Shown here piece after piece: positions 2,591 to 22,510 of a DNA stretch of 24,057 nt. Origin of the DNA: a virus. A model generated the notes under the pieces. That model did not search any database. It saw only the letters and a list, made by a program, of their open reading frames with translations, and was not told the DNA's origin. The position numbers and the translations under genes are program-made. The stretch's first letter is position 1, and every line of letters starts with the position of its first letter. The stretch spans positions 1 to 24,057 of the IMG/VR virus record IMGVR_UViG_3300006805_000160. One strand, 5' to 3'.

Positions 2591-3756
2591 GTCTCTTTGC
2601 AAAACGCGCGCTGAACCCTGACCCCGTGCGCACCTCTGTGTGGCTGCCGACGACCAACTGGTCAGGCGAATCAATCACCGAGTCCACCGCCCTCGAGGTC
2701 ACTGCCCTCATGGCGTGTGTGTCGCTGATCGCCGACTCTGTCGCATCGCTGCCTATGCGTGGCATCCGCCACGTTGGCGATCGCACCGAGCCAGTGCAGA
2801 TCCCTAAGTGGATCGACAGCTCGACCGAGCACACGCAGTACGAACTCATTCACATGATCGTGACCTCGCTTGCCCTGCACGGCAACGCCTACATCTACGT
2901 CGACCGAGACGTGAACACAAACGCCCCGATCATGCTGACACCGCTGCACCCCACAAACGTGCAGGTGAACATCGTCAACCGCCAGCGTTACTACACGACG
3001 AACGGCATCGTCATTGATCTGAACAACATGCTGCACTTGCGCTGGTGGACGCCGCCGCAATCTGCAGTCGGTCTGTCACCGATCGAGATGCAGCGCAACA
3101 CCATCGGCCTCGCACTTGCTCAGGCACGCTTTGTGAATCAGTGGTACTCCGAAGGCGCAACGCCTTCGTCGGTGCTCGAGGTTGACGGCGACATGACCAC
3201 CGACCAGGCGAAGGTTCTGCAGGCAACGTGGGAAACCTCACACCGCCGTAAGCGTCGCCCAGCCGTTCTCACTAACGGCATGAAGTGGAAGCCAATCACC
3301 GCTTCGGCCCAGGACATGGAACTCGCCGAATCTCGTGAGCAGACGATCAACGACATCGCGCGCATCTTCCGTGTGCCGAACTACATGATCGGCGCACGCG
3401 GCGACTCACAGACATACCAGAACAACGAATCCGCCGGCATGCACTTTGTCACCTACACGTTGCTGCCGTGGCTTGTGCGCATTGAGCGCGCGCTGAGCGG
3501 TCTGATGGTTGCACCTCGCGAGATCAAGTTCGACACCTCAGCGTTCCTTCGTGCCAACACGACCGAACGAATCCGTGCCTATCAGAGCGCAATCATGTCG
3601 GGCATCTTGACGCCGAACGAAGCGCGTGAGCGTGAAGGCCAAGAGCCCTACCCAGGCGGCGACGAGTTCGTCATGGTCCTGCCAGGCGCAATCGTCGCAG
3701 GCACAAGCGAAGCGCAACCGCCAGTCGGCACAGACGCTGAGCCACCGATCCGATGA
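2587..3756 (+). CDS. Portal protein, HK97 family
   Basis: A 389-residue protein that would form the dodecameric ring at the capsid vertex through which DNA enters and to which the terminase and tail attach. It matches the HK97-type portal family in length and sequence pattern: an N-terminal segment with ALEVTALMACVSLIADSVA, a central HGNAYIYVDRD region, an LHLRWW segment, and a C-terminal stretch with TSAFLRANTTERIRAYQ followed by LTPNEARE. The start ATG at 2587 is coupled to the preceding stop by ATGA. The C-terminal 20 residues are Pro/Glu/Ala-rich and probably disordered. The prohead protease gene follows at once. Confidence 0.93.
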   Translation: MSLFAKRALNPDPVRTSVWLPTTNWSGESITESTALEVTALMACVSLIADSVASLPMRGIRHVGDRTEPVQIPKWIDSSTEHTQYELIHMIVTSLALHGNAYIYVDRDVNTNAPIMLTPLHPTNVQVNIVNRQRYYTTNGIVIDLNNMLHLRWWTPPQSAVGLSPIEMQRNTIGLALAQARFVNQWYSEGATPSSVLEVDGDMTTDQAKVLQATWETSHRRKRRPAVLTNGMKWKPITASAQDMELAESREQTINDIARIFRVPNYMIGARGDSQTYQNNESAGMHFVTYTLLPWLVRIERALSGLMVAPREIKFDTSAFLRANTTERIRAYQSAIMSGILTPNEAREREGQEPYPGGDEFVMVLPGAIVAGTSEAQPPVGTDAEPPIR

Positions 3757-3767
3757 TGGAGATCGCA

Positions 3768-4490
3768 ATGACCGAAGAGCTGAACCAAGACACGGCGCAG
3801 GGGCCTGTCTCTGAGCAACTGGATGAAACCATGCCCGAACAAACCCCTGTTCGCTACACCGCCGTCGAGATCGAGAACCGCCGCATCGGCGGTCGCGATG
3901 TCGAGTTCCGCACCGTTGAGGTCGACGGCCTGCAGCTTCGAGCTGTAGAAGCCGACACCGAGATGCCGATGCGTTTCGCTGGTTACGCCGCAGTGTTCAA
4001 CTCCCCATCTGAGCCGCTGCCCTTCATCGAGACCATCGCCCCTGGTGCGTTTCGTCGCTCGCTGAAATCAGACAGCGAGAAGCGCATGTTCTTGAATCAC
4101 AACACCGACCAGGTGTTGGCAAGCACACGCTCAGCGACGTTGTCGCTCAGCGAAGATGATCGTGGTCTGTACGTCGAAGCCGAACTGCCCGACACCACCT
4201 ACGGTCGCGACCTCTCAATCCTCATGCAGCGCGGCGACGTGCACTCGATGAGCTTCGGCTTCTCGGTGCCCCGTGGCGGCGACTCATGGTCTGAGGATGG
4301 CAGCTCGCGTGAACTGCGGGAGATCATCTTGCACGAAGTCTCAGTGGTGACCGGCTTCCCCGCCTACCCCGCCACAGAAGGTGCGCAAGTTCGCAGCACC
4401 GAAGAAATCGCCGAGCCAGTCGACGCAACCGAAGACGGTCTGCCAGTCGATCTTGCTCGTCGCATGCTCGAGCTCAACGCCAAGCGCTGA
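3768..4490 (+). CDS. HK97-family prohead (S78) protease
   Basis: A 240-residue serine protease that would cleave the scaffold-like delta domain of the capsid protein and itself during head maturation. The fold starts near residue 66 (MPMRFAGYAAVFNS). The predicted catalytic residues are H111 in MFLNHNTD and S162 in HSMSFGF; the EVSVVTGFPAYP strand is also typical. Residues 1-65 form an acidic, probably flexible extension. ATGs at 3753, 3756 and 3768 share this frame; 3768 is preferred because GGAG (3758-3761) lies 6 nt upstream, while the other two would overlap the portal stop without an SD. The C-terminal 35 residues are acidic, as in relatives. Confidence 0.9.
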   Translation: MTEELNQDTAQGPVSEQLDETMPEQTPVRYTAVEIENRRIGGRDVEFRTVEVDGLQLRAVEADTEMPMRFAGYAAVFNSPSEPLPFIETIAPGAFRRSLKSDSEKRMFLNHNTDQVLASTRSATLSLSEDDRGLYVEAELPDTTYGRDLSILMQRGDVHSMSFGFSVPRGGDSWSEDGSSRELREIILHEVSVVTGFPAYPATEGAQVRSTEEIAEPVDATEDGLPVDLARRMLELNAKR

Positions 4491-4599: not shown

Positions 4600-5808
4600 A
4601 TGACTGACGAACTCGTCACTCGCCTCTCGGAACAGCGCGCGCGTACCTGGGAAGAAGCTAAGTCTCTTCTCGATCACGCAGCGTCCGAGAACCGCGACCT
4701 GTCCGGTGAAGAAGCCGAACAGTTCACCCGCATGAACGACGACATCGATGCACTCGATGCCCGTCGCAAGAACATCATCGACATCGAAGCACGCGAGCGT
4801 GCAATCGACGAATCACGCGCCGCTCTCGGCGTCCCGGCTGACTTCGGTGTTCGCACCGCTGCCCCTGCCGAGAAGAACGACAGCGACATCATTCGTGAAA
4901 TCGCCCTTGGCGAGCGTCGTTCGTTCTCGTTCGACAAGCGTGATGTCACCAAGTCCAGCACCGGCGCACCAGTGCCGACCTCGTTCTACGACCAGCTCGT
5001 TGAGCAGCTCGTCATTCAAGGCCCGATGCTTGACGGCAACGTCATCACGATGCTCACCACGAACAGTGGCGAGTCCCTTCAGATCCCACGCACCGCCACC
5101 TACACCGCCCCAGCAATCATCGGTGAAGGCACAGCGATCACGGAATCTGACCCGACCTTCGCAGCGTTCGTCACCCTTGGTGCATTCAAGTACGCCGCCA
5201 CGTTCCAGCTCAGCCGTGAGGTTGTCGAAGATTCAGGCATCAACTTGCTCGACTTCGTCGCCCGCCAGGCTGCAGTCGGCATGGGCACAGCGGTCAACGC
5301 TGGTCTCACCGTCGGCACCGGAACCACACAGCCCAACGGCATCGTCAACGGAGCCGGCTCAGCCGTCACCGGTGGCACTGGCGTCGCTGGCGTTCCGACC
5401 TACGAGAACCTTGTAGACCTCGTCTACTCGGTTGGATCTCCTTACCGCCGTCGTGGCGCTTCGTTCCAAATGAACGCAAGCACCGTCGCTGCAGTTCGCA
5501 AGATCAAGGACGGCAACGGAAGCTACATCTGGCAGCCGTCGTTCCAAGACAATGCCCCTGATCAGCTGCTCGGCTACGCCGTTCTGGAAAACCCAGACGT
5601 CGTCGCTACGGCAACTGGCGCAAAGTCGGTCATCTTCGGCGACATGGCATCGGCGTACTACGTCCGCCAGGTCCGTGGCATCGACTTCGCACGCGATGAC
5701 AGCGTCGGCTTCGTCAATGACCTCATCACCTTCCGCGTCACATGGCGTGGAGACGGCGCGGTCGTCGATTCCAACGCAGTGAAGTTTTACAAGGGTGGCG
5801 CGTCCTGA
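4600..5808 (+). CDS. Major capsid protein, HK97 fold
   Basis: A 402-residue protein that would build the icosahedral shell. Residues 1 to about 85 are a charged, helical, coiled-coil-like delta domain rich in Glu/Arg/Asp, which the preceding protease should remove; cleavage would fall near residues 85-100, but the exact site is not visible. The rest follows the HK97 capsid pattern, with TSFYDQLVEQLV, SGESLQIPR, an FKYAATFQLSREVVED segment, GTTQPNGIVNG, and a C-terminal RGDGAVVDSNAVKFY. GGAGG at 4590-4594 gives a strong SD 5 nt before the ATG. A 109-nt untranslated gap separates it from the protease gene, and a long stem-loop follows the stop. Confidence 0.95.
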   Translation: MTDELVTRLSEQRARTWEEAKSLLDHAASENRDLSGEEAEQFTRMNDDIDALDARRKNIIDIEARERAIDESRAALGVPADFGVRTAAPAEKNDSDIIREIALGERRSFSFDKRDVTKSSTGAPVPTSFYDQLVEQLVIQGPMLDGNVITMLTTNSGESLQIPRTATYTAPAIIGEGTAITESDPTFAAFVTLGAFKYAATFQLSREVVEDSGINLLDFVARQAAVGMGTAVNAGLTVGTGTTQPNGIVNGAGSAVTGGTGVAGVPTYENLVDLVYSVGSPYRRRGASFQMNASTVAAVRKIKDGNGSYIWQPSFQDNAPDQLLGYAVLENPDVVATATGAKSVIFGDMASAYYVRQVRGIDFARDDSVGFVNDLITFRVTWRGDGAVVDSNAVKFYKGGAS

Positions 5809-5835
5809 TCGGACGCCTCACCTTTTACGGGCTTT

Positions 5836-5888
5836 GTCTGGTTGGTGGTGGTTCGTTGCCCGTGCGAGCCACCACCGGCCAACCAGAC
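5836..5888 (+). other. Long stem-loop after the capsid gene
   Basis: GTCTGGTTGG (5836-5845) pairs perfectly with CCAACCAGAC (5879-5888). TGGTGGTTCG (5846-5855) pairs with CGAGCCACCA (5865-5874) with one G-U wobble. The loop is 9 nt and a 4-nt CCGG bulge interrupts the 3' side. There is no U-tract, so it is not a standard intrinsic terminator. It may stabilise the abundant capsid mRNA or attenuate transcription into the following genes. Confidence 0.7.
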
Positions 5889-5918
5889 AGCACACACGGC
5901 ATTCGGGCGAGGAGCATC

Positions 5919-7199
5919 ATGGGCAAGAGACGGAGCAATTCACATGTGGGTGGTAATCCGCAACACAGAGGTCGAGTTACCTCCGTACCTGGCGCAGTAC
6001 CTGGTCGAAGCGTCGGTGGCGACACCCGTGCAGGAATCTGCTGGCACTCAAACTTCGCAGGAGCAGGCACCGGCTACGGCGTCCAAACCGCGCAAGTCGC
6101 GCGCCAAATCAAAGCCACCGGCCGACCCATCACCCTCTCCAACAACTACGGCACCCAGGGCTTCATCACCGAATGGGAAGGCATTGAAGTCCTCCCGACC
6201 GGCTTCCACCCCTACTCAGCAGACGTGCTCGACGCGCATCTCAAATACAGCCAAGAGCAAACCGGTCGACCCACCGCTCTGATCACACTCTTCGACACTT
6301 GGGTGTTCAAAGGCGCCAAGCTCGACGACATCAAGGTCATTGCCTCATGGGTGCCAATCGATCACACGCCCGCACCGCCGGACGTTCTCGAATGGTGCCG
6401 CCGAGACAATGTGCTGCCGATCGCTATGGCGAACTACGGCGCACGAATGCTCGAGGCTGCCGGCGTCGACCATCGCTACATTCCACACGGCGTCGACACC
6501 AAAGTCTTCCGACCAGGCGCAACCGTTGACGGTGCGACAGGTCGTCAACTTCTCAAGATCCCCGACGACGCATTCGTGGTCGGGATCGTCGCTGCCAATA
6601 AGGGCATCGCACCCATGCGCAAAGCATGGGGCGAGAACCTGCTGGCGCTCGGCCAGTTCATGGCAAAGCATGACGACGTTTATGCCTACATGCACACCGA
6701 GAAACGTGGCGCACAAGGCGGCGTGGATCTCGTGCAACTCGCAGGCGCTTGCGGTATCCCTGAGAACCGCATCGTCTGGACAGATCAGTGGGCCTACTAC
6801 GCAGGTCTGCCGCCATTCGTGCTGGCAGGTCTGATGGGTGCGATGGATGTCAACCTTGCTGCCTCTCGTGGCGAAGGGTTCGGCGTTCCAGTTATCGAAG
6901 CCGCCGCCTGTGGCGTGCCCTCGATCGTGTCCAACTTCACCGCTCAGCCTGAGCTTGTCGAAGATCACGGCTACCTCGTCTCCGTGCAGCCCTACTGGGA
7001 CGCACTGCAGACCTCATGGTTCGCCACACCGCTGGTGCATTCAGTGCTCGAGGAACTTGAGCACGCCTACGACACCGCCCGAGACGCAGACCGAAAGGCT
7101 GCTGCTCGAGCACACGCTGAGACCTACGACAACAAGATCGTCTTCGACAAATACTGGCTGCCAGTGCTCGCCGAGATCGACGAACTGATGGCGAAGTGA
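5919..7199 (+). CDS. Glycosyltransferase, GT-B fold, GT4-like
   Basis: A 426-residue protein that would transfer a sugar from a nucleotide-sugar donor, perhaps onto virion proteins. From about residue 39 it follows the GT4 pattern: WHSNFAGAGTGYG near the N-terminal Rossmann domain, IPHGVDTKVFRPG linking the domains, and in the C-terminal donor domain the EX7E motif (E319, E327) in SRGEGFGVPVIEA, then CGVPSIVSNF. The ATG at 5919 has GAGGAG at 5909-5914. Residues 1-38 look unlike any glycosyltransferase N-terminus, and GC3 in this frame is low until about 6030, where the other frame looks coding. No alternative ATG, GTG or TTG lies between 5949 and the domain start, so the true N-terminus is uncertain. 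It is probably an acquired gene in the head module. Confidence 0.85.
   Translation: MGKRRSNSHVGGNPQHRGRVTSVPGAVPGRSVGGDTRAGICWHSNFAGAGTGYGVQTAQVARQIKATGRPITLSNNYGTQGFITEWEGIEVLPTGFHPYSADVLDAHLKYSQEQTGRPTALITLFDTWVFKGAKLDDIKVIASWVPIDHTPAPPDVLEWCRRDNVLPIAMANYGARMLEAAGVDHRYIPHGVDTKVFRPGATVDGATGRQLLKIPDDAFVVGIVAANKGIAPMRKAWGENLLALGQFMAKHDDVYAYMHTEKRGAQGGVDLVQLAGACGIPENRIVWTDQWAYYAGLPPFVLAGLMGAMDVNLAASRGEGFGVPVIEAAACGVPSIVSNFTAQPELVEDHGYLVSVQPYWDALQTSWFATPLVHSVLEELEHAYDTARDADRKAAARAHAETYDNKIVFDKYWLPVLAEIDELMAK
5944..6282 (+). CDS. Small head-region protein overlapping the glycosyltransferase gene
   Basis: An alternative-frame ORF of 112 codons. The ATG at 5944 has GGAG (5932-5935) 8 nt upstream. 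Its first 30 codons (MWVVIRNTEVELPPYLAQYL...) look like a real short protein, and about 25 of the 30 end in G or C, against about 46% for the overlapping frame. The next part is Lys/Arg/Pro/Ala-rich (KPRKSRAKSKPPAD, residues about 50-63), as in small proteins often found after capsid genes. Beyond about 6130 it turns into the low-complexity Pro/Ser/Thr composition expected of a shadow frame, so its real 3' end is doubtful. I do not know its function. It may be an old head gene whose 3' end was overrun by the glycosyltransferase, or the 5' part of a frameshifted fusion. Confidence 0.5.
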   Translation: MWVVIRNTEVELPPYLAQYLVEASVATPVQESAGTQTSQEQAPATASKPRKSRAKSKPPADPSPSPTTTAPRASSPNGKALKSSRPASTPTQQTCSTRISNTAKSKPVDPPL

Positions 7200-7723
7200 T
7201 CGCCTGGGACCGGCTCGGCAAACGGCACGAAGCATTCGCCACCATCGCCGAGCTGCTGGGCGAAGGCTGTCGCATCGTTGAGACCGGCACCGTCAGAGAC
7301 CTAGGCAACTGGGAAGGCGACGGCCAGTCAACGATCGTCTGGGACCAACTCGCCACCGACCTCGGCGGCACCGTCACCACCATCGACATCAATCCACTCG
7401 GTGCCGAACTTGTCGCTGAACTCGGACTGCAAGCAACGACCGCAATCGTCGGCGACTCCCTCGATGTGATCCCAACACTGACCGGCCATTGCGACTTTCT
7501 CTACCTTGACTCTTTCGATGTCGACTTCGAGAACCCGCAGCCTGCAGCAGCTCATCACCTCAGCGAACTCATGGCAGCTCTCAACCTGCTGGCCCCTGGC
7601 TCAATCGTCGCAGTCGACGACAACCAAGACGACCAGGGCAAAGGCTCAGAGGTTGCGTGGTTCCTTGCCGAGCATGGCGCTAACGAAATCGTCCGCGGCT
7701 ATGTCCGCGTCTGGAGAATCTAA
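7196..7723 (+). CDS. Class I SAM-dependent methyltransferase-like protein
   Basis: A 175-residue Rossmann-type protein starting at GTG 7196, which overlaps the glycosyltransferase stop (GTGA). A GxG-like first motif, VETGTVRDLGNW (near residues 28-39), is followed by a TTIDINP strand, an IVGDSLDVIP segment, then DFLYLDSFDVDF and a late SIVAVDDN strand. This order resembles Methyltransf_24 and CmcI/TylF-like methyltransferases, some of which act on sugars. The substrate is not visible. Translational coupling to the glycosyltransferase suggests the two enzymes work on the same glycan, for instance methylating a sugar on the virion; that link is inference. Confidence 0.7.
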   Translation: MIAWDRLGKRHEAFATIAELLGEGCRIVETGTVRDLGNWEGDGQSTIVWDQLATDLGGTVTTIDINPLGAELVAELGLQATTAIVGDSLDVIPTLTGHCDFLYLDSFDVDFENPQPAAAHHLSELMAALNLLAPGSIVAVDDNQDDQGKGSEVAWFLAEHGANEIVRGYVRVWRI

Positions 7724-14767: not shown

Positions 14768-15439
14768 ATGGCATACACAACACTCGTTAGCGGCACCAAC
14801 ATCACAAGCTCATGGGCAAACGCCAGTGTGCGCGATCAAGTCGTTTCGCCGTTTGTGACTTCTGCCGCCCGAACCGCAGCGATCACTTCTCCCGTCGCCG
14901 GCATGGTGTCATCGCTCACCACTTACGACAAAACTGAGGGCATTGAGTTCTACAACTCAGCCGGCCAGTGGCGTAAGCCGTGGAACATGCCGTGGGGAAT
15001 CATCACCACCACCGCTGGTGGCACATCGAATCTTGGCTACGTCGACGTCACATCGACTCAAGGGTCCATCGGTGCCACTGGCGTGTCTCTGACAAACATG
15101 ACGATGACTTTCAACACAGCCGCCAATCGCATGTATCGACTCAGCATTCACACCAACTTCTACTCAACACAAGCTGGAGATACGGCCGCACTCCTCGCAC
15201 TCATTGATGGATCAAATGTGGGCTACGCGTTATCTGGCGACCTGACTGCAACCTCGGCGTCGCTGAGAAGTCTGGACCTTGTCAAGCCATTCACAAGAAC
15301 CACTGGTGGTTCCATGTCCGTAATCATGCAGGCCTATCGCCAATCTGGTCCTGGCGGAACACTCACCATGCAGGCTTCTGCTGTGAACCCTGCCACCATG
15401 CTCATCGAAGACATCGGCCCCGCCGGCGCACCGTCCTGA
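14768..15439 (+). CDS. Tail-tip protein, copy 2 of a paralogous pair
   Basis: A 223-residue paralogue of the preceding protein. Conserved landmarks are YTTLVSGTNITSSWANASVRDQV at the N-terminus, KPWNMPWGI in the middle and MLIEDIGPAGAPS at the end, while the beta-rich middle (about 85-205) has diverged strongly. The ATG at 14768 is preceded by a modest AGGA (14754-14757). The two genes are separated by only 12 nt, consistent with tandem duplication followed by divergence of the middle. The pattern suggests two adhesins with different targets or a heteromeric tip. Confidence 0.7.
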   Translation: MAYTTLVSGTNITSSWANASVRDQVVSPFVTSAARTAAITSPVAGMVSSLTTYDKTEGIEFYNSAGQWRKPWNMPWGIITTTAGGTSNLGYVDVTSTQGSIGATGVSLTNMTMTFNTAANRMYRLSIHTNFYSTQAGDTAALLALIDGSNVGYALSGDLTATSASLRSLDLVKPFTRTTGGSMSVIMQAYRQSGPGGTLTMQASAVNPATMLIEDIGPAGAPS

Positions 15440-16146
15440 TGACCACCGTCGACGAAGTTCTCAACATTGAGCGCAGCTTCCTCGGCGAAGGTGGCAATCG
15501 TTTCTGGGACTGGTACCCAGCGCCCTATGGCACTGCCTGGTGCGACATCTTCCAGAGCTACTGCCTCACCGCCGCTGGCATCCCGACTCACTTCGCATGG
15601 GTGTCGGCGCACTTCGATTACTACCGAGCCCAAGGCCGCACCTCTTACGACGCGCGCTCAGCAACTCCCGGCTCGCTCATCGCCTTTGAGTGGAACTCCA
15701 CACCAGGTGGCTACGACCACATCGCAATGGTGGAGAGCGTCGACGCCAACGGCGTCACCGCTCTGAACGGCAACGTCAACGGCTCACGAGTCCAGCGACT
15801 GTGGCATCCCTTCAATGGTGGCGGCATTGCTGAAGTTGCCTTCCCCGAATACTCAACACCAACTCCACCACCTATCCCGAACCACATCATCGGAGATGAC
15901 GACATGACCGACCGCTTCCTTGCTCGAGCCGAAGGCCACCCCGAGGTGTTCCTTGTCGCTCCTGGTCTCGGCTTCCGCTGGCACCTCACCAGCGAAGACC
16001 GCCTGCGTTCGGCTGTCTACATTCTCAACTCGTTCGGCGGCAAGATCCTCAAGCCACCAGCGGGAGCGAAAGTTGACATCATCGCCGGCCAGCCGGTCTG
16101 GGTTATGAACCCAGCCGACCTCGCCATGATCCCTAACGCCGCATAA
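15439..16146 (+). CDS. Endolysin with N-terminal CHAP domain
   Basis: A 235-residue cell-wall hydrolase. The CHAP domain (about residues 5-130) has the predicted catalytic Cys in TAWCDIF (C35), His in YDHIAMVE (H94) and a polar partner in ALNGN (about 110-112). A Pro-rich linker, STPTPPPIPN (about 139-148), leads to a C-terminal domain from residue 156, probably for cell-wall binding. The peptide bond it cuts is not visible. No signal peptide is seen, so release should depend on a holin. The start at 15439 overlaps the previous stop (TGATG). An internal ATG at 15904 with its own SD could make the C-terminal domain separately. Confidence 0.88.
   Translation: MTTVDEVLNIERSFLGEGGNRFWDWYPAPYGTAWCDIFQSYCLTAAGIPTHFAWVSAHFDYYRAQGRTSYDARSATPGSLIAFEWNSTPGGYDHIAMVESVDANGVTALNGNVNGSRVQRLWHPFNGGGIAEVAFPEYSTPTPPPIPNHIIGDDDMTDRFLARAEGHPEVFLVAPGLGFRWHLTSEDRLRSAVYILNSFGGKILKPPAGAKVDIIAGQPVWVMNPADLAMIPNAA
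15892..15906 (+). promoter_or_regulatory. Possible internal translation start in the endolysin gene
   Basis: GGAG (15892-15895) lies 8 nt before an in-frame ATG (15904), exactly at the linker/C-terminal domain boundary. Initiation there would give an 80-residue protein, MTDRFLARAEGHPEVF onward. Confidence 0.45.
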
Positions 16147-17306: not shown

Positions 17307-17666
17307 GTGGAAACGCCGAACCCGATGTGGGACTCTGTCACCGCTGAAGCAAACGCCCTTGTGCATGGTCAGCGTGGCGCACTGTATGACCACCCAAGCG
17401 TGGACTACTCCCGCACCGCTGAGATCTTTGAAGCCATTACTGGCGTCACGCTCACCGTGCCTGAGGCTGTGGCCTTCATGCTGAGCGTCAAGCTCTCACG
17501 CATCGGCAACGCCCTCGAGCAAGGCTTCACCGCCGACATGGTGCGTGACTCAATCGTCGACCTCGCCGGCTACGCAGACTGCCTCTATGCCGTATGGGCT
17601 GACGCCACCGACGAGGCTATGGACGACTCGCTCGCTGAGTTCTTTGACGAGCTCGAGGATGAGTGA
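17307..17666 (+). CDS. DUF6378-like protein
   Basis: A 119-residue acidic protein starting at GTG 17307, with GGAGG (17297-17301) 5 nt upstream. The sequence has EANALVHGQRGALYDHP near residues 10-26, then YSRTAEIFEAITG, PEAVAFMLSVKLSRIGNA and DSIVDLAGYADCLYAVW, which is the conserved pattern of DUF6378, a family common in phages. Members are all-alpha and sometimes discussed near MazG-like folds, but a biochemical activity is not established as far as I know. The C-terminal tail (DDSLAEFFDELEDE) is strongly acidic. Confidence 0.7.
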   Translation: METPNPMWDSVTAEANALVHGQRGALYDHPSVDYSRTAEIFEAITGVTLTVPEAVAFMLSVKLSRIGNALEQGFTADMVRDSIVDLAGYADCLYAVWADATDEAMDDSLAEFFDELEDE

Positions 17667-17901
17667 GCAGACATGGACCTGGCTGATTCTCGCCTGCGAT
17701 CTGGCTGGCCTCGCCGTCTACGCGCTCGTCATCGAGCGACGTATCTGGTGGGGCTGGACTCTGACCGCATCGCTCACCGGTCTGCCCTTTCTCGCCTACT
17801 CAATCCTCGGCCCCGAGTCTCGACCAGCCTTTACCGTGCTCGCTTGCGTGTGGCTCGTCGTGCACCTTCGCAACGCCTACCTCTGGAAGCGTGAGCCATG
17901 A
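17659..17901 (+). CDS. Small three-TM membrane protein
   Basis: An 80-residue protein overlapping the preceding gene by 8 nt and the next by 4 nt (ATGA). Three hydrophobic segments are visible: WTWLILACDLAGLAVYALVI (about 6-25), WWGWTLTASLTGLPFLAYSI (about 30-49) and PAFTVLACVWLVVHLRNAYL (about 56-75). The protein is Trp-rich and ends KREP. Similar short membrane proteins occur in actinophage lysis cassettes and may help or time lysis. The frame is open upstream, but only the ATG at 17659 gives this compact TM protein. Confidence 0.7.
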   Translation: MSEQTWTWLILACDLAGLAVYALVIERRIWWGWTLTASLTGLPFLAYSILGPESRPAFTVLACVWLVVHLRNAYLWKREP

Positions 17902-18440
17902 CCTGCATCGTCGGCCTTGAGCATGACGGCATCGTCACAATCGGCGGCGACGCCGCTGCTGTCGAAGACACACGACTCACCAGGTACACCGAGCCCAAGG
18001 TATTCACCAACGGCGAGTATCTGATCGGCTTCTGCGACTCGTTCCGCATGGGCCAGCTGCTCCAGTACCGACTGAAGGTGCCGAAGCAGATCGTCGACGA
18101 CGACATGACGCACCTGTGCACCGTGTTCATCGATGCCTGCCGCAAGACCTTCCACCAGGGCGGCTTCGCCAAGACCTCAGACAGCGAAGATGCCGGGGGA
18201 GTGTTCCTCGTCGGCTATCGCGGCTCGCTCTACTGCATCGACGAGGACTACCACGTCGGCCGCTCAGCGCTCGGCTATGAGGCGATTGGTTGTGGCGATC
18301 ACTTCGCCCTCGGCTCACTGGCATCGACCTCAGGAGACCCCAAGGCTCGAGTCCAGATGGCGCTCTACTCAGCAGCTCTTCATTCCACCTCAGTCTGCGA
18401 ACCCTTCACCGTTCTCTCAACCTCAACACAGGAGCCATAA
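17898..18440 (+). CDS. Proteasome/HslV-like Ntn hydrolase
   Basis: A 180-residue protein whose Met1 is followed by Thr. After Met removal, the mature start TCIVGLEHDGIVTIGGD puts Thr at 1, Asp at 17 and Lys at 33 (TEPKVF), the spacing of the catalytic Thr1-Asp17-Lys33 set in proteasome beta subunits and HslV. Later segments also fit: FLVGYRGSLYCIDEDY, then YEAIGCGDHFALGSLAS (like the conserved IGSG...A stretch of HslV), and ALYSAALHSTSVCEPFTVLS at the end. The Asp166/Ser169 pair of proteasomes is not clearly kept. There is no propeptide. The start overlaps the membrane protein gene by 4 nt, so it is made with the lysis proteins. No ATPase partner is seen in this window. Its target is unknown. 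Confidence 0.75.
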   Translation: MTCIVGLEHDGIVTIGGDAAAVEDTRLTRYTEPKVFTNGEYLIGFCDSFRMGQLLQYRLKVPKQIVDDDMTHLCTVFIDACRKTFHQGGFAKTSDSEDAGGVFLVGYRGSLYCIDEDYHVGRSALGYEAIGCGDHFALGSLASTSGDPKARVQMALYSAALHSTSVCEPFTVLSTSTQEP

Positions 18441-18442
18441 CC

Positions 18443-18703
18443 ATGTTCACCACTTCATTCTGGAAGTCAGCAGCCGAACGCGCAGTCAAGACAGTCGCCC
18501 AGGCGCTCATCGCCGTACTGGCTGCCACCACCTTCGATTGGTTCACCGCCGATTGGCAAGCCATCGCTGGCACTGCCGCCACCGCTGGCGTGCTGTCGCT
18601 GCTCAGCTCGATCGCTTCTGCCGGCATCGCCGACAAGGGCACGCCCTCGATCATCGCTGCCCCGAGTAACGCAACCATTCCTCCTGGCTCAGAGATTGCC
18701 TGA
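18443..18703 (+). CDS. Holin, r1t type
   Basis: An 86-residue protein. FTTSFWKSAAERAVKTVAQAL, a hydrophobic IAVLAATTF segment, and a second hydrophobic helix (IAGTAATAGVLSLLSSIASAG, about 41-61) follow the Phage_r1t_holin pattern, in which an FWKxAxERAxKT N-terminus is typical. Such holins form membrane pores that release the endolysin. AGGAG (18430-18434) lies 8 nt before the ATG at 18443. The C-terminus, from about residue 62, is polar and Pro/Ser-rich. It is the last gene of the late operon; a 13-bp hairpin lies about 100 nt downstream. Confidence 0.85.
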   Translation: MFTTSFWKSAAERAVKTVAQALIAVLAATTFDWFTADWQAIAGTAATAGVLSLLSSIASAGIADKGTPSIIAAPSNATIPPGSEIA

Positions 18704-18847: not shown

Positions 18848-18982
18848 TGCGTTATGGGGTAAGCACCAGCAACTAATCTGACAGGGGCACACAGAGCCAC
18901 ACAGGGGGCAATCGCGCGATGTGTACCGCTATGTGTACCAGTGGCCCGCGATGCCATACACCCCTTGCAACTGCATGGGACG

Positions 18983-19036
18983 CTTAAACCCCCCGGAAGG
19001 CAACTTCTTGTGGGTTCAAATCCCACTCCGGGCACA
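18983..19036 (+). tRNA. 3' half of a tRNA-Leu gene (partial; attP core)
   Basis: From 18983 the sequence reads as an anticodon loop with TAA (CTTAAAC), the 3' anticodon strand CCCCC, a long variable arm GAAG-GCAA-CTTC, a perfect T arm GTGGG-TTCAAAT-CCCAC, and the acceptor strand TCCGGGC plus A. The long variable arm and TAA anticodon fit tRNA-Leu(TAA). The 5' half does not fold with it: the bases before the loop cannot pair with CCCCC, and no matching D arm is seen. It is therefore a fragment carried by the phage to restore the host gene on integration, not a working tRNA. Confidence 0.7.
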
Positions 19037-19039
19037 AGC

Positions 19040-19066
19040 AAAACCCCGCAGAAATGTGGGGTTTTT
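19040..19066 (+). terminator. Rho-independent terminator after the tRNA fragment
   Basis: AAAACCCCGCA (19040-19050), loop GAAA, and TGTGGGGTTTT (19055-19065) form a stem with one G-U pair followed by T. It is probably the tRNA gene's own terminator, carried over with the core, so host identity may extend to about 19066. Confidence 0.8.
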
Positions 19067-19197
19067 ATTGGTTTTGTGGACAGTTTCGCATCGTGTCCAC
19101 AATTCTCGGCGAAGGCCCGAACAGGCCCGAATCGGTACACATTAGGCCGAGAATGTGTACCGTAATGTGTACCGCTAGGGATCTAAAAGGGTGCGAC

Positions 19198-22101: not shown

Positions 22102-22292
22102 ACGAACACGAGATCGACCGCATGAAAGCGCGCTTGCTCGAGGAGTTTCTCTCTGTCGACATCGACCGCGAAGTGTTGAGCGACGCCATTGGAACTCTTG
22201 AGGTCTGTCGTCGAGTGATTGCCCGCTTTGAGCGACTCGTCGCCGAACTTGATGCAGAGGTTGCCTTTCAGCGTTCTTGTGGCCCGACATGA
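22098..22292 (+). CDS. Small helical/coiled-coil protein
   Basis: A 64-residue, strongly charged and helical protein (MNEHEIDRMKARLLEEFLSV, then IDREVLSDAIGTLEVCRRVI and RFERLVAELDAEVAFQ) with heptad-like Leu/Ile/Val spacing, probably forming a coiled coil. It overlaps both neighbours by 4 nt (ATGA). No family is recognised. It may be an adaptor or regulator made with the early recombination genes. Confidence 0.62.
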   Translation: MNEHEIDRMKARLLEEFLSVDIDREVLSDAIGTLEVCRRVIARFERLVAELDAEVAFQRSCGPT

Positions 22293-22510
22293 AAACACCC
22301 TGGCAGAACCTCGCCGCCTGTCGTGGCTTACCGGCCGAGATGTTCTTTCCATTCCGCACCAACGAACTTGGCAAGAACCGTGCCTTGCGGATCTGTGATC
22401 GCTGCGAAGTCGCTGAGCAGTGTCTCGCCTTCGCAATCAACAACGACGAGCAGTGGGGTATCTGGGGCGGAATGTCCAGACCTGAACGTCAACTAATCGC
22501 CAAGCCATAA
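22289..22510 (+). CDS. WhiB-family iron-sulfur transcription factor
   Basis: A 73-residue protein with the four WhiB cysteines C11, C36, C39 and C45 (AAC...ICDRCEVAEQC) that bind a 4Fe-4S cluster, and the GIWGGMS turn (57-63) followed by RPER, the signature that contacts the sigma factor/DNA side. WhiB proteins are characteristic of Actinomycetota; phage copies such as WhiBTM4 can interfere with host WhiB regulation and block septation or superinfection. The basic C-terminal tail is short (RQLIAKP), so DNA contact may be weak. The ATG at 22289 overlaps the preceding stop (ATGA). Confidence 0.9.
   Translation: MKTPWQNLAACRGLPAEMFFPFRTNELGKNRALRICDRCEVAEQCLAFAINNDEQWGIWGGMSRPERQLIAKP

Follow-up and report, generated by a model that had tools for sequence, protein, structure and literature searches.

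The AAH subfamily of proteasome homologs was described in 2021 by Fuchs, Alva and Lupas from α-proteobacteria, Actinobacteria and phages, and comprises compact group I homologs without a propeptide (PMC8665760). The survey's second main phage type is PPH; no co-occurring AAA+ partner was reported for the new homologs, and no Actinobacteria-specific phage with an AAH could be found (PMC8665760). Here we analyse a gene for an AAH-type proteasome-like N-terminal nucleophile (Ntn) hydrolase of 180 aa, located at 17898-18440 (+) of the window, i.e., the whole 24,057-nucleotide stretch that makes up positions 1 to 24,057 of IMG/VR virus record IMGVR_UViG_3300006805_000160. The enzyme family is not new: PHROGs and the 2021 survey (PMC8665760) cover it already, and the initial annotation of this DNA, which presented the gene as if it were, has to be corrected. 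New here, as far as checked, are the probable actinobacterial host of the phage, an invariant Ser47/Arg49 motif and the restriction of the lysis context to one clade.

Translation of the open reading frame (ORF) gives the N-terminus MTCIVGLEHDG. As a single sequence, the hydrolase matched PHROG 1040, ‘peptidase HslV family’ (E 3.9e-17, residues 1-179), and had no match in Pfam, NCBIfam or PDB sequences, so that a profile of 92 aligned relatives was needed; conservation counts given below refer to that alignment. With this profile, a search of the kind proposed in the initial annotation recovered PDB chains of HslV (6.3e-9), BPH, the β-proteobacterial proteasome homologue (1.8e-7), and proteasome β subunits (3e-7). 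PF00227 was matched individually by 45 of the 92 relatives (best E 3.9e-6). Wherever the alignment extends to the N-terminus, profile position 2 falls on Thr1 of the PDB matches, and the IGCGDHFALGS segment, already thought to fit, aligns in hidden Markov model (HMM) alignments with the GSGG..A segment of HslV.

The AlphaFold2 monomer model (pLDDT 95.7, pTM 0.91) has the α-β-β-α sandwich that defines the proteasome superfamily. A different fold, the outcome that would have spoken against the original assignment, was looked for, and the Ntn fold was obtained. Helices span residues 49-58, 69-87, 134-143 and 148-162, i.e., H1-H4 are all present, and there is no insertion. Among PDB entries, Foldseek placed BPH (5ovs) first (TM 0.82), then HslV and 20S β subunits, with probability 1.00; its matches in a viral library were phage proteins, one of them annotated as HslV.

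The Met-Thr start and the proteasome-like spacing of Asp17 and Lys33 (Thr = 1), from which the initial annotation had argued, are both present in the translation. Thr1 (codon 17901..17903, +), the predicted nucleophile once Met is removed, is Thr in 91 and Ser in one of the 92 aligned sequences; the second residue of 187 relatives is likewise Thr in all but one, which has Ser. Asp17 (17949..17951, +) is conserved in 92/92 aligned sequences and 187/187 relatives, and Lys33 (17997..17999, +) in 92/92. Gly43 (18027..18029, +), present in 91/92, aligns by HMM with the Gly of the HslV GF and corresponds to the oxyanion-hole Gly47 of proteasome β and Gly45 of HslV. The window protein carries this complete set, which is near-invariant among the 92 relatives, and the possibility of a catalytically dead subunit was dropped because these residues are in place. 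A propeptide had been judged absent and there is indeed no upstream in-frame space for one: in L001, a near-identical relative, only one codon separates the start from the upstream stop. Ratios of nonsynonymous to synonymous substitution rates (dN/dS) against window-clade relatives lie at 0.05-0.19 in most comparisons and reach 0.36 in one, which indicates purifying selection on the protein. By homology, fold, register, active-site residues and selection, the window protein is a real proteasome-superfamily Ntn hydrolase, as had been proposed. In Moorella phage MTATph1 (L054, 4001-4043), the HslV-family gene is annotated as starting 42 bases after the conserved Met-Thr, which removes the nucleophile.

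Besides the catalytic set, Ser47 and Arg49 of an S-F-R motif are invariant in the alignment. Arg49 (18045..18047, +; R 92/92) corresponds, in an ungapped register to HslV 1g3i, to HslV position 51 and approximately to residue 53 of proteasome β, which we take to line the S1 pocket. If that register holds, Arg49 would lie in the S1 pocket and would be predicted to favour acidic P1 residues.

Neither the window nor any of four 30-32-kb sibling records, all possibly fragments, yielded an AAA+ ATPase (PF00004, PF07724), in line with the earlier remark that no ATPase partner was visible; the same search was positive in 14/14 control genomes. An HslU partner, as expected for HslV, was likewise not found with these models in the window and its four siblings, a result that applies to phage records and not to a host HslU.

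The reading we consider reasonably probable is that of an AAH N-terminal Thr hydrolase that is made late and forms a ring chamber without an ATPase, resembling BPH. Host deformylase and methionine aminopeptidase would remove the initial Met (Met-Thr is a permitted substrate) and free Thr1, which would form the active site together with Asp17, Lys33 and the Gly43 oxyanion hole. By analogy with BPH, the subunits may then assemble into a ring chamber that requires no ATPase and may cut unfolded or short polypeptides. The enzyme would be produced late, alongside structural and lysis proteins, and candidate substrates are proteins of the host or of defence systems, or a protein of the phage. A more specific version, in which an ATP-independent late chamber of a temperate actinobacterial phage uses Arg49 in the S1 pocket to favour acidic P1 residues and removes specific host or phage proteins, is rather unlikely as a whole.

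Several points weigh against the main reading. The second-shell position of proteasome Ser129 (Ser124 in HslV) is mostly Cys in AAH (Cys131, codon 18291..18293, +; C 77, S 10, A 4 and V 1 of 92), and the Asp166 position, judged by alignment only, is mostly Ser. An in-frame 6-codon deletion in the sibling contig L030 (gene 2658-3179; RITRYT-VGEYL) removes Lys33. No experimental paper on AAH, on either its activity or its oligomer, turned up in literature searches, and Fuchs et al. expect novel quaternary structures as likely (PMC8665760). Connectase, which belongs to this superfamily as well, is a monomeric ligase, which would also allow AAH to be a specific protein ligase or transpeptidase rather than a degradative protease; given that the window model, with its helices and short connection, is closest to BPH, we regard this as very unlikely.

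The initial annotation also set the gene in a lysis region and suggested that the protease could act on host envelope or regulatory proteins, or on virion proteins. Its description of the locus is accurate: the late position of the gene is upheld, the stop of an 80-aa hydrophobic protein with three hydrophobic stretches recognised by inspection (17659..17901, +; no Pfam match, the longer ORF weakly matching PHROG 14697) overlaps the hydrolase start in an ATGA at 17898-17901, and an r1t-type holin (18443..18703, +; PF16945 E 7.6e-20) directly follows the hydrolase stop. The order membrane gene-hydrolase-holin is nearly constant in the window clade (~33 contigs), and this operon place, with its ATGA/GTGA overlap in most of these contigs, is what favours a role in controlling lysis timing or in degrading envelope proteins together with the membrane protein and the holin. 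However, the membrane gene lies 1.5-3.5 kb from the hydrolase in L022 and L023, which breaks the coupling, and the position is lost in the sister clade L143 (65% identical), where ORFs that look scaffold-like, decoration-like and capsid-like by inspection precede the hydrolase, as well as in other lineages. Context was scored by HMM; naive ORF neighbours gave many antisense artefacts in high-GC loci. In this analysis the lysis genes of the window clade were not found near relatives elsewhere, and holin adjacency is confined to the window's own clade. Elsewhere the hydrolase adjoins genes for NAD ligase, PheS and an HD protein (one clade, mostly large phage contigs), lies near thymidylate synthase (another clade) or, in ~26 phage and prophage loci outside the window clade, has terminase, portal or head-protease genes within ~5 kb. 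On the tree, strongly supported branches force the head/packaging label to change at least five times. Given these varied contexts and forced label changes, the gene moves and is best explained as an accessory gene of the late region rather than a lysis component, the lysis neighbourhood being one clade's arrangement; a lysis role is accordingly improbable, and a functional tie to lysis or the envelope is not supported.

The ~26 loci near head genes, which come from several lineages, could instead point to a protease of virion maturation with a head or tail protein as its target. Such proximity carries little weight, though, because a 10-kb neighbourhood spans much of a 40-kb genome, and the window phage, like many such phages, already encodes a standard prohead protease of its own (Peptidase_S78, 3753..4490, +; PF04586 E 2.6e-43). 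We therefore think a maturation role unlikely, and a substitute for the head-maturation protease was dropped as a candidate, since the phage has its own S78 enzyme. It is also doubtful that we are dealing with a lysogenic-conversion or anti-defence gene, which would alter host proteostasis or remove a host defence protein. The phage is temperate and has an integrase, the gene stands towards the end of the late region, ahead of the probable attachment site, and bacterial chromosomes hold stand-alone AAH copies, all of which would suit such a function; yet the gene lies within the late string, upstream of the holin, and no separate transcription unit is visible.

The remaining genes of the window place the hydrolase in a temperate phage, the host of which is probably an actinobacterium. 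Upstream of the hydrolase are a CHAP endolysin (15439..16146, +; PF05257 E 2.4e-7), a small hydrophobic protein, a metallophosphoesterase-like protein and, in the same gene string, a DUF6378 protein (17307..17666, +; PF19905 E 2e-10). Downstream, a tRNA 3′-end-like segment (~19010-19035) lies between ATGTGTACCG direct and inverted repeats (18919-19185) and is followed by the integrase gene; this arrangement is probably an attP with arm-type sites, as in a free temperate phage. The actinobacterial host is suggested by a gene for a WhiB-family transcription factor (22277..22510, +; PF02467 E 4.6e-20) and by an actinophage-like portal and integrase. To our knowledge, the WhiB family is confined to Actinobacteria and their phages. 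The closest phage matches, at 30-35% identity, are from Mycobacterium phages for the portal, and from Glutamicibacter, Gordonia and Mycobacterium phages for the integrase. A search for lysogens in 297 Actinobacteria genomes returned only the Frankia genome that had been used as its centre, and no lysogen among them. Another, divergent relative of the hydrolase adjoins a WhiB gene in the Actinomycetia phage DSL-LC01. Glycosyltransferase-like and methyltransferase-like ORFs, recognised by inspection, separate the capsid genes of the window from those for the head-tail connector (5742-7723).

Relatives of the hydrolase are widespread. At least 585 were confirmed in IMG/VR, and 79 named phage records matched. 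The best GTDB genome matches are in Frankia (49-53%), followed by Pelosinus, Myxococcota, Paenibacillus, Actinomadura, Streptomyces, Azospirillum and Rhizobium. The chromosomal copies are an addition to the canonical proteasome or HslV, because all 15 of the 15 AAH-carrying bacterial genomes tested also gave strong PF00227 matches.

Individual loci deserve mention. Four Rhizobium loci (L130, L133, L138 and L139; 6115-6117) have a stop after AAH codon 38, read as TAG in L130, beyond which the frame stays open; this would be either a shared pseudogene or unusual readthrough. Tandem second AAH-like paralogs that start with MTCI(V/I)G and keep the Asp and Lys occur in L039 (4454-4999), L043 (3243-3911), L051 (4444-5001) and L178 (4392-4997), and a two-subunit ring is possible there. 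In Vibrio phage 2.058.O (L059, 2498-2995), a peptide deformylase gene lies three genes upstream of the AAH-like one, which is of note because exposing Thr1 needs removal of the N-terminal Met.

A compact temperate phage (siblings are ~31 kb) that keeps an AAH under purifying selection indicates that the enzyme is worth its cost to a small genome, and the window phage offers a simple system for finding the AAH substrate. An actinobacterial phage with an AAH also bears on how actinobacterial chromosomes acquired the gene.

Of the known systems compared with the window protein, PPH is excluded. Both are phage-borne proteasome-like homologs, but PPH is shorter, at ~140 aa, and has no helix H2 (PMC8665760), whereas the window protein has 180 aa with H2 at residues 69-87, and PPH identity was rejected on these grounds. 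PHROG 1040, an annotation carried by many phage genes, is a broad cluster that may mix several subfamilies. HslV (1m4y, 1g3i) is the top profile match (6e-9), aligns over nearly the full length of 1g3i and has the same catalytic set; it differs in that the window and sibling records are without HslU, in that its Ser124 position is mostly Cys in AAH, and in that the AAH loop after Lys33 is shorter by 2 residues. HslV proper was rejected, as no HslU was found and the single protein matched no curated HslV model in NCBIfam or Pfam. BPH (5ovs, 5ovu) is the top structural match (TM 0.82), has a proteasome-type active site and, like the window protein, no dedicated ATPase (PMC8665760). Its identity to the window protein is, however, 14-19%, and it has a long acidic pore loop (PMC8665760), instead of which AAH has the invariant S-F-R motif. 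The window protein fits the AAH subfamily, in which it was placed by the published description, distribution and tree. It is a compact group I subunit of ~180 aa with H1-H4 and without propeptide or insertions, and it groups with homologs from Actinobacteria and α-proteobacteria both in the genome matches (Frankia, Streptomyces, Azospirillum and Rhizobium, in addition to Bacillota prophages and phages, as in the published distribution) and in the tree. The difference is one of origin: the window gene comes from a probable actinobacterial phage, of the kind sought but not found in 2021, and this phage probably fills the gap left by that survey.
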